Assembly (NCBI GenBank): GCA_903970145.1
Contig: CAJCHO010000064.1
Location: 1 to 64,000, forward strand
Length of the DNA: 64,000 nt
DNA from: Mycobacteriaceae bacterium
Lineage (GTDB): Bacteria; Pseudomonadota; Gammaproteobacteria; Burkholderiales; Burkholderiaceae_D
Direction: 5' to 3'
Part shown: positions 5,576-45,788 of the stretch, piece by piece
Layout: each line of letters starts with the position of its first letter
How positions within the stretch are numbered: position 1 is the first letter of the stretch
Made by a program: the position numbers and the translations under genes
The notes under the pieces: model-generated
What the model was told of the DNA's origin: nothing
What the model saw: the letters and a program-made list of their open reading frames with translations, nothing else
The model's database searches: none

Positions 5576-5683
5576 GGAATTCCTCTTTCAGTAATGCCCG
5601 CTTGGGGCGGCGCGCGCATTGTGCACCAGAACCGATGAGCAAGTCATCCCGGGAACCAGCTGAGCCAGGGCGCGGTAAACAGC

Positions 5684-5988
5684 GTGAAGTGGGCCGATAA
5701 GCCGGATTCTGTTACGGCGCAACGCGCTATGACAGTCATTCCTCTAAACCGCGCATCGCTGCACGGCTCTAGCCGCCTACCCGCACGCTCCCCGAGCAGG
5801 GTCACAGCGTGCCTACTTGACGTTGCTCCGCGTAGAGATTGCCCGTTTCACCCGGACTGAACCGGCTCGTCTCTGTTGCTCTGATCCTCGCCTCACGGCG
5901 GACAGGTGTTACCTGCTACGCTGCTCTTCGGAGTCCGGACTTTCCTCCCGCGACAGATGTCGCCGGCGACTGTCTGGCCCACTTCACT
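5684..5988 (-). ncRNA. rnpB: RNase P RNA, class A
   Basis: On the minus strand the sequence opens with GTGGGCCAGACAGTCGCC and GAGGAAAGTCCGGACTCC and ends with ACAGAATCCGGCTTAT followed by GGCCCACTTCAC, the conserved 5' and 3' elements of bacterial type A RNase P RNA. The two termini pair to form P1. About 305 bases, slightly short for the class. It processes the 5' ends of tRNA precursors. Boundaries are set by the paired ends and may be off by a few bases. A CATAAAAT sequence just upstream is a plausible -10 box. Confidence 0.95.
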
Positions 5989-43900: not shown

Positions 43901-44926
<1,026 letters not shown>

Positions 44927-44984
44927 TTACGAAAATTTACAGATATGTGCGCTAACGCACTCGAACTTTTCAGATATGGCCCAA

Positions 44985-45098
44985 TCATACGTTACAGATG
45001 GCTTCGGTCATCTCCCGCTTCACCTCCCTGAGCGGGTGCCTTTTACGAGAAGGCGTTCCTACCCCGGCGTCATTCCCCTTGCGCCGGGGTTTTTTTTT
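44985..45098 (+). ncRNA. Predicted structured small RNA with anti-Shine-Dalgarno loop and terminator
   Basis: Four consecutive stem-loops can be drawn: GATGGC-TTCG-GTCATC (44997-45012, a C(UUCG)G tetraloop), CCCGCT / AGCGGG with loop TCACCTCCCTG (45014-45036), GCCTT / AAGGC (45038-45054), and an intrinsic terminator with nine Ts (45062-45098). The second loop contains TCACCTCC, matching the anti-Shine-Dalgarno end of 16S rRNA, as in C-rich-loop regulatory RNAs that bind ribosome sites. The 5' end is a guess; no convincing promoter was found. Confidence 0.5.
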
Positions 45099-45721
45099 GC
45101 CTCTTTCAGACCAAGCAGTTCGAGCACGCGTTCTTGCGCCTCTTCAACGCCGCTACGCTTAAGACTCGACAGAAGGGCCGCCGAATTCGCGCCGCCATAT
45201 CCGCGCAAGGTGCGCAGTGACTCTTCGAGTACCCGAGCCGCCTCGGCGCGATTGAGCTTGTCCGCCTTGGTCAAAAGCGCGTGTACCGGCTTGCCAGTCG
45301 GCGCGAACCAGTCGAGCAGCGCGCAGTCGAGATCAAGAAGCGGCCGGCGCGCATCCATCACCAGCACAAGCGCCACGAGCGTGTCGCGCTGACGGATATA
45401 GGCGCCTAGCGCGTCCGACCAGTAGCTCTGCGTCGTGTGGCCTGCCTTCGCATAACCGTAGCCGGGTAGATCGACCAGAAACGCCGCGGGGACGTCAGGA
45501 TCCCCGGTCTGCGCGCCGATGCCAAAATAATTCAAGTGCTGGGTGCGCCCGGGAGTCTTGGACGCGAAGGCCAGACGTTTTTGCTGGCACAGCGCGTTGA
45601 TGGCGCTCGACTTGCCGGCGTTCGAGCGACCGGCAAAGGCGATCTCGGGAACTCCCAGCATCGGCAACTGCTCGAGCACCCCCACCGTGGTGAAAAAACG
45701 CGCCTGCTGCAACATCGACAT
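45059..45721 (-). CDS. engB: Ribosome biogenesis GTPase YihA/YsxC (EngB)
   Basis: A 220-residue TrmE-Era-EngA-like small GTPase involved in large-subunit assembly. G1 GRSNAGKSS, G3 DLPGYG and G4 TKADKL are all present. The open frame extends to 45847, but ATG 45721 (MSMLQQARFF) matches the family N-terminus and avoids overlap with the divergent cytochrome c4 promoter. The stop lies beside the plus-strand terminator. Confidence 0.95.
   Translation of the reverse strand: MSMLQQARFFTTVGVLEQLPMLGVPEIAFAGRSNAGKSSAINALCQQKRLAFASKTPGRTQHLNYFGIGAQTGDPDVPAAFLVDLPGYGYAKAGHTTQSYWSDALGAYIRQRDTLVALVLVMDARRPLLDLDCALLDWFAPTGKPVHALLTKADKLNRAEAARVLEESLRTLRGYGGANSAALLSSLKRSGVEEAQERVLELLGLKEAKKNPGARGMTPG
45062..45098 (+). 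terminator. Intrinsic terminator ending the predicted small RNA
   Basis: An 8-base stem CCCCGGCG / CGCCGGGG followed by nine T residues on the plus strand. It slightly overlaps the stop of engB, which is on the other strand. No plus-strand protein gene ends here, so it should terminate a non-coding transcript. Confidence 0.85.
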
Positions 45722-45788
45722 GGGGCAATGCCCCGGCGGCACGGCGGCGCTGCACCGTCTGCCTATAGGGCGGGAATGGGAAGTTCGG

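Follow-up and report, generated by a model that had tools for sequence, protein, structure and literature searches.

Between hemB and engB in the window (the 64,000-nucleotide stretch of DNA analysed here), positions 44985-45098 can fold into a row of stem-loops on the strand opposite to both genes, which raises the question of whether the gap holds a regulatory RNA and, if so, what switches it on and what it acts upon. The divergent neighbour hemB (porphobilinogen synthase; 43901-44923; NF006762, 509.8 bits) and the tail-to-tail neighbour engB (YihA/YsxC; 45059-45724; TIGR03598, 193.8 bits) both run on the minus strand. The site is therefore not the end of any plus-strand gene, as the initial annotation had observed. 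Direct reading and folding also bore out its description of four plus-strand hairpins, with a C(UUCG)G tetraloop among them and a nine-T intrinsic terminator at the end. In folding energy the segment lay 3.6 standard deviations below dinucleotide shuffles, none of 200 being equally stable. A 138-aa plus-strand frame from 44976 was considered as a protein gene and rejected; it begins before the point where the RNA is inferred to start and continues across engB on the opposite strand.

The same annotation had called the element unannotated, which was wrong. The covariance model search against Rfam that it recommended found RF02837 (anti-hemB) at 45011-45097, scoring 71.9 bits against a threshold of 49.5 (E 7.2e-15), and this score places the element in a known sRNA family. 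Our own covariance model R1, whose training set included the window sequence, matched 44981-45096 with 102.1 bits. The gene order is that of RF02837, the RNA being divergent from hemB and convergent with engB, with its terminator half (from ~45059) antisense to the engB 3' end. Rfam has one further match in the window, a bacterial class A RNase P RNA (5682-5985, minus strand, 232.5 bits).

The Burkholderia cenocepacia homologue, ncS04, is a 105-nt RNA whose gene lies between BCAL0264 and BCAL0265 and is oriented to them as the RNA in the window is to its neighbours. It has a start site from differential RNA-seq, a RACE-confirmed 3' end and a Northern blot signal, and is cited in these reports as having co-purified with Hfq in an earlier study (PMC4603805, PMC5688073). 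The window RNA (44995-45098, plus strand, 5' end inferred) is ~104 nt long and matches the published one in locus, strand, loop, hairpins 2-4 and terminator. The segment 44985-45098 is a real small RNA and a member of the catalogued family anti-hemB. No function for this family is assigned in the literature searched.

Comparison with relatives, the second check that had been proposed, revealed compensatory changes in hairpins 1 and 3 and in the terminator. An alignment of 37 diverse betaproteobacterial members was scored on one stated structure. Hairpin 1 (44997-45012, plus strand; GATGGC-TTCG-GTCATC), which carries the C(UUCG)G tetraloop and which the RF02837 model lacks, had changes on both sides at all six of its pairs; compensatory changes were found at four of five pairs in hairpin 3 (45038-45054, plus strand) and at four of seven in the terminator helix, hairpin 4. 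The terminator (45062-45098, plus strand) consists of an 8-bp stem and a second C-rich loop (UCAUUCCCCUUG), then nine T. The covariation score was 0.200 compared with 0.110 after shuffling (0 of 500 shuffles as high) and dropped when partners were slid, indicating that helices 1, 3 and 4 co-vary. The 5' hairpin absent from the Rfam model is therefore real, as judged from these sequence changes. The stem of hairpin 2 (45014-45036, plus strand; CCCGCT/AGCGGG) was paired in 99.5% of cells, and its sequence varies so little that covariation gives no test of it.

Since the terminator sits at the 3' end of engB, the element could be read as merely a two-way terminator for that gene, its upstream hairpins decorative and no regulatory RNA involved. 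What speaks against this is that hairpins 1 and 3 show compensatory changes, the loop is invariant, the promoter is conserved and a transcript of the homologue has been published; we give it practically no weight.

The feature most strongly preserved is the loop of hairpin 2, presumably the target-binding part of the RNA. This C-rich, anti-SD-type loop, UCACCUCCCUG, occupies 45020-45030 on the plus strand (loop TCACCTCCCTG in the folded structure), and its core, CCTCCCTG(A/G)GCGG, was kept in 28 of the 30 loci found by covariance model alone; loci L031-L150 were left out of this count because they had been collected with the exact loop pattern. The initial annotation had equated the loop with the anti-SD segment of 16S rRNA. 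The window does carry TCACCTCC, which has the letters usual for that segment, but the exact 8-base identity is mostly lineage-specific: it is a minority form, with TTCTCC in most relatives, and the A of TCACC is replaced by T (TTCTC in 20 of the 28 counted). The conserved element is thus CCUCCCUGAGCGGG rather than the full identity with 16S rRNA. A second C-rich run of the CCCCTT type is present in the terminator loop of many relatives, though not all. Nine relatives of the same GTDB family had no anti-hemB match over threshold (weak matches of at most 29 bits), which suggests loss or strong divergence of the RNA in one branch. A metagenome bin labelled Klebsiella pneumoniae (CAMDRJ010000108.1) contained the exact betaproteobacterial loop, which probably reflects a wrong label or a mixed bin.

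Upstream of the RNA, at 44963-44989 on the plus strand, lies a predicted sigma-E (RpoE) type promoter, GAACTT-N16-TCATA (the window reads GAACTTTTCAGATATGGCCCAATCATA), which the initial annotation overlooked along with the connection of the locus to ErsA and Spot 42. The exact pattern GAACTT-N15-17-TCATA occurs twice in the whole 3.47 Mb genome, and one of the two sites is this promoter. Among 27 relatives found by covariance model, with the upstream region ignored in selection, 26 carried [GA]AACT[TAC]-N15-18-TC within 100 nt upstream of the loop core, compared with a mean of 1.5 and a maximum of 5 in 200 shuffles. A stricter motif was present in 53% of 138 dereplicated upstream regions (0.7% when shuffled); its positions cluster between -62 and -56 relative to the loop core, and its spacing is 16 or 17. 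The upstream consensus, GGAACTTT...TCttA, agrees with the known sigma-E/AlgU consensus. Of 30 rpoE genes in the order, 26 have an equivalent motif in the 250 nt before them (0.56 shuffled), consistent with autoregulated rpoE. The source genome encodes RpoE, scoring over the curated cut-off, with anti-sigma-like and RseB-like frames (read by eye) downstream; in the 380 nt preceding this particular rpoE, however, no sigma-E motif turned up. Taken as a prediction from sequence comparison, a sigma-E-type promoter for anti-hemB is well supported. The published 105-nt length sets the start of ncS04 6 nt past the -10 element in Burkholderia relatives, and the same register puts the start in the window near 44995.

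The window and most relatives have the sigma-E-type form, whereas Burkholderia has shifted towards TATATSATA. Burkholderia sensu stricto has lost the upstream hexamer and has a TATATGATA element in the -10 position. AAACTT is retained along with TATATCATA in Pandoraea and in most Paraburkholderia. The -10 reads TATATSATA in Burkholderia, Trinickia, Caballeronia and Pandoraea, and the AAACTT -35 is missing in examples from Burkholderia, Caballeronia and Trinickia and in one Paraburkholderia. These differences point to an apparent promoter switch in Burkholderia and its neighbours. Seven loci showed a palindrome-like GGTATATCATACC at the -10 place, the GAACTT hexamer being lost in Burkholderia sensu stricto; read on the minus strand, this element could serve hemB.

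Such promoters lend some substance to the idea that the RNA acts in trans through its anti-SD loop but has a constitutive sigma-70 promoter, with GAACTT left as a relic or serving another ECF sigma factor. The level of ncS04 was constant across all conditions tested in B. cenocepacia (PMC5688073), as this idea would predict; however, because the Burkholderia promoter has diverged, the constitutive ncS04 neither contradicts nor supports sigma-E control elsewhere. Constitutive transcription is unlikely as a general account: all but one of the 27 unselected relatives have the sigma-E form, 26 of 30 rpoE genes have it too, and the window carries GAACTT-N16-TCATA exactly, while a sigma-70 scan of the locus found no plus-strand promoter.

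The family name raises a different possibility, namely that the RNA or its transcription controls hemB in cis, either as antisense to a long hemB leader or by collision with an overlapping hemB promoter. The divergent hemB start codon is only ~70 nt from the RNA start, and a minus-strand sigma-70-like site (45011 to 44984, ATGACC-N16-TATGAT) overlaps that start, so the two promoters may interfere locally. Of 120 named loci, moreover, 108 have hemB no further than 8 kb away. Gammaproteobacteria, however, keep the RNA beside polA and/or engB: 21 of 28 gammaproteobacterial loci, in whose discovery genomic position played no role, have one or both genes within ~1.5 kb. Moreover, cis-antisense pairing needs no nearly invariant loop in otherwise free sequence, and an association of the homologue with Hfq is on record, as cited in PMC5688073. 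A hemB-specific cis role is accordingly disfavoured and in our estimation quite improbable, and the hemB in the family name is probably incidental. Retention of the RNA in genomes without hemB as a neighbour makes action in trans the best inference, as the initial annotation had proposed on the strength of the loop; an independent sRNA with a conserved loop fits that proposal, but our target searches yielded nothing convincing in its favour.

Our preferred reading, to which we assign a probability of roughly two in three, is that anti-hemB depends on sigma-E for its transcription, associates with Hfq and acts in trans, using its invariant CCUCCC loop to block ribosome binding sites. Transcription from GAACTT-N16-TCATA by polymerase with RpoE, the envelope-stress sigma factor, would begin near 44995 and stop at the terminator at 45098. 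Hfq would bind the transcript in the source species, most likely on the U-rich tail, and the exposed loop, CCUCCCUG, may pair with G-rich ribosome binding sites of the CAGGGAGG type in a set of mRNAs, blocking their translation; the C-rich terminator loop may contribute further contacts. Porins were rejected as general targets, the loop duplex energies at ~28 porin starts being no better than shuffled in genomes with or without the RNA. A genome-wide search for CAGGGAGG-N2-13-ATG returned 14 sites compared with 4 in the reversed control, one of the 14 being anti-hemB itself; four long frames behind other CAGGGAGG sites had no clear common theme, and a longer pattern, CTCAGGGAGG, recovered mostly RNA genes again or scattered single sites. 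The porin and loop-complementarity searches thus produced no convincing targets of anti-hemB.

The gene neighbourhood suggests where such an RNA may have come from. In a class-wide sample of 274 gammaproteobacterial genomes, 124 had an RF02837 match at E up to 0.001, with 14 over threshold. The engB flank of Pseudomonadaceae carries ErsA (Pseudomon-1, RF01719; 110-134 bits) behind GAACTT-N16-GTCAGA. ErsA is sigma-22- and Hfq-dependent and located in the polA-engB gap (PMC8575079, PMC8395346); the window has engB on one side and hemB instead of polA on the other. Both RNAs adjoin engB convergently and have a sigma-E-type promoter, a 5' hairpin, a C-rich terminator loop and Hfq as a published or presumed partner, while the sequence of their middle parts differs and RF01719 matched neither the window region (E up to 1) nor the source genome anywhere. 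When the ErsA model was run on the gammaproteobacterial sample, it returned ten matches, one of them ErsA proper in a Pseudomonas-like genome. All nine of the weak matches adjoin engB, and six overlie anti-hemB matches on the same bases, so that these intermediate genomes match both models.

Convergence offers another explanation for this likeness: C-rich loops and sigma-E promoters would have arisen repeatedly beside engB and polA, and the resemblance to ErsA and sX13 would not be by descent. Unrelated bacteria do have C-rich-loop RNAs (PMC3771888), and C-rich families that are unrelated, mmgR for one, also gave weak cross-matches. Typical members of the anti-hemB and ErsA families, too, gave no convincing match to the other family's model (R1 made no convincing recovery of ErsA in Pseudomonadaceae), so common descent is likely but unproven. 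Set against this, six intermediate genomes have two independent models landing on identical bases, always next to engB and mostly with a sigma-E motif, and we consider convergence possible but doubtful. That anti-hemB is a betaproteobacterial member of an engB-anchored sRNA lineage including Pseudomonas ErsA appears well supported by these comparisons. We lean, by a small measure, towards the broader proposition that anti-hemB and ErsA, probably with sX13 and many gammaproteobacterial engB-adjacent RNAs, form one ancient sigma-E-driven, C-rich-loop lineage that has stood beside engB since before the split of Beta- and Gammaproteobacteria.

Direct membership in sX13, ar14, RF02278 or ErsA was rejected, all being below threshold. 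sX13 adjoins polA and uses C-rich loops to repress mRNAs that have G-rich ribosome sites (PMC3771888). It shares with anti-hemB the polA-side locus and, presumably, this working principle, as the initial annotation had sensed in comparing the element to the sX13 type, but sX13 works without Hfq and the window reached only 19.1 of the 50 bits required by RF02232. CcsR, the other comparison made, was not among the Rfam matches to the window region. The alphaproteobacterial ar14 (RF02344) has a CCUCCUCCC loop and a GC-rich terminator as the window RNA does; the window scored 22.5 bits against a threshold of 58.8. One intermediate locus (L178) scored 45.4 bits with the anti-hemB model, 40.5 with ar14 and 35.8 with sX13. 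Spot 42 (spf) of E. coli occupies the gap between polA and engB. Its location at polA is given in PMC3771888. Spot 42 differs from anti-hemB in being CRP-controlled, and RF00021 had no match in the window. RF02278 (ncS27) and Bordetella S17 are betaproteobacterial toxic or double-hairpin sRNAs whose CU-rich loops cover ribosome binding sites (PMC5688073, PMC11722255); their loci and layout differ from those of anti-hemB, and RF02278 was not among the matches to the window region (E up to 1).

Together, promoter and gene neighbourhood suggest that anti-hemB may be switched on by the envelope-stress sigma factor and belong to the same lineage as Pseudomonas ErsA. The family has so far been catalogued without a function, and a conserved RpoE-type promoter supplies a testable stimulus, envelope stress; much of the Betaproteobacteria would also gain a candidate sRNA under sigma-E control. 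The ErsA link offers a single origin for RNAs that are now separate Rfam families and, if the one-lineage proposition is true, this sRNA would be a counterpart of the MicA/RybB-type envelope-stress RNAs outside enterics. The sigma-E-type promoter, the support for hairpin 1 and the ErsA-locus link are unstated in the literature searched, whose reach left out most subscription papers; as far as that literature shows, the promoter, the hairpin 1 covariation and the ErsA-locus evidence are new relative to the catalogued record.

Tandem copies of the RNA were also observed. Two gammaproteobacterial genomes had four anti-hemB-like matches in a row (G230, C33:13148-13886; G322, C3:217579-218301), and two further loci (L155 and L158) each contained two tandem anti-hemB-like RNAs, every one of them behind its own predicted sigma-E-type promoter.
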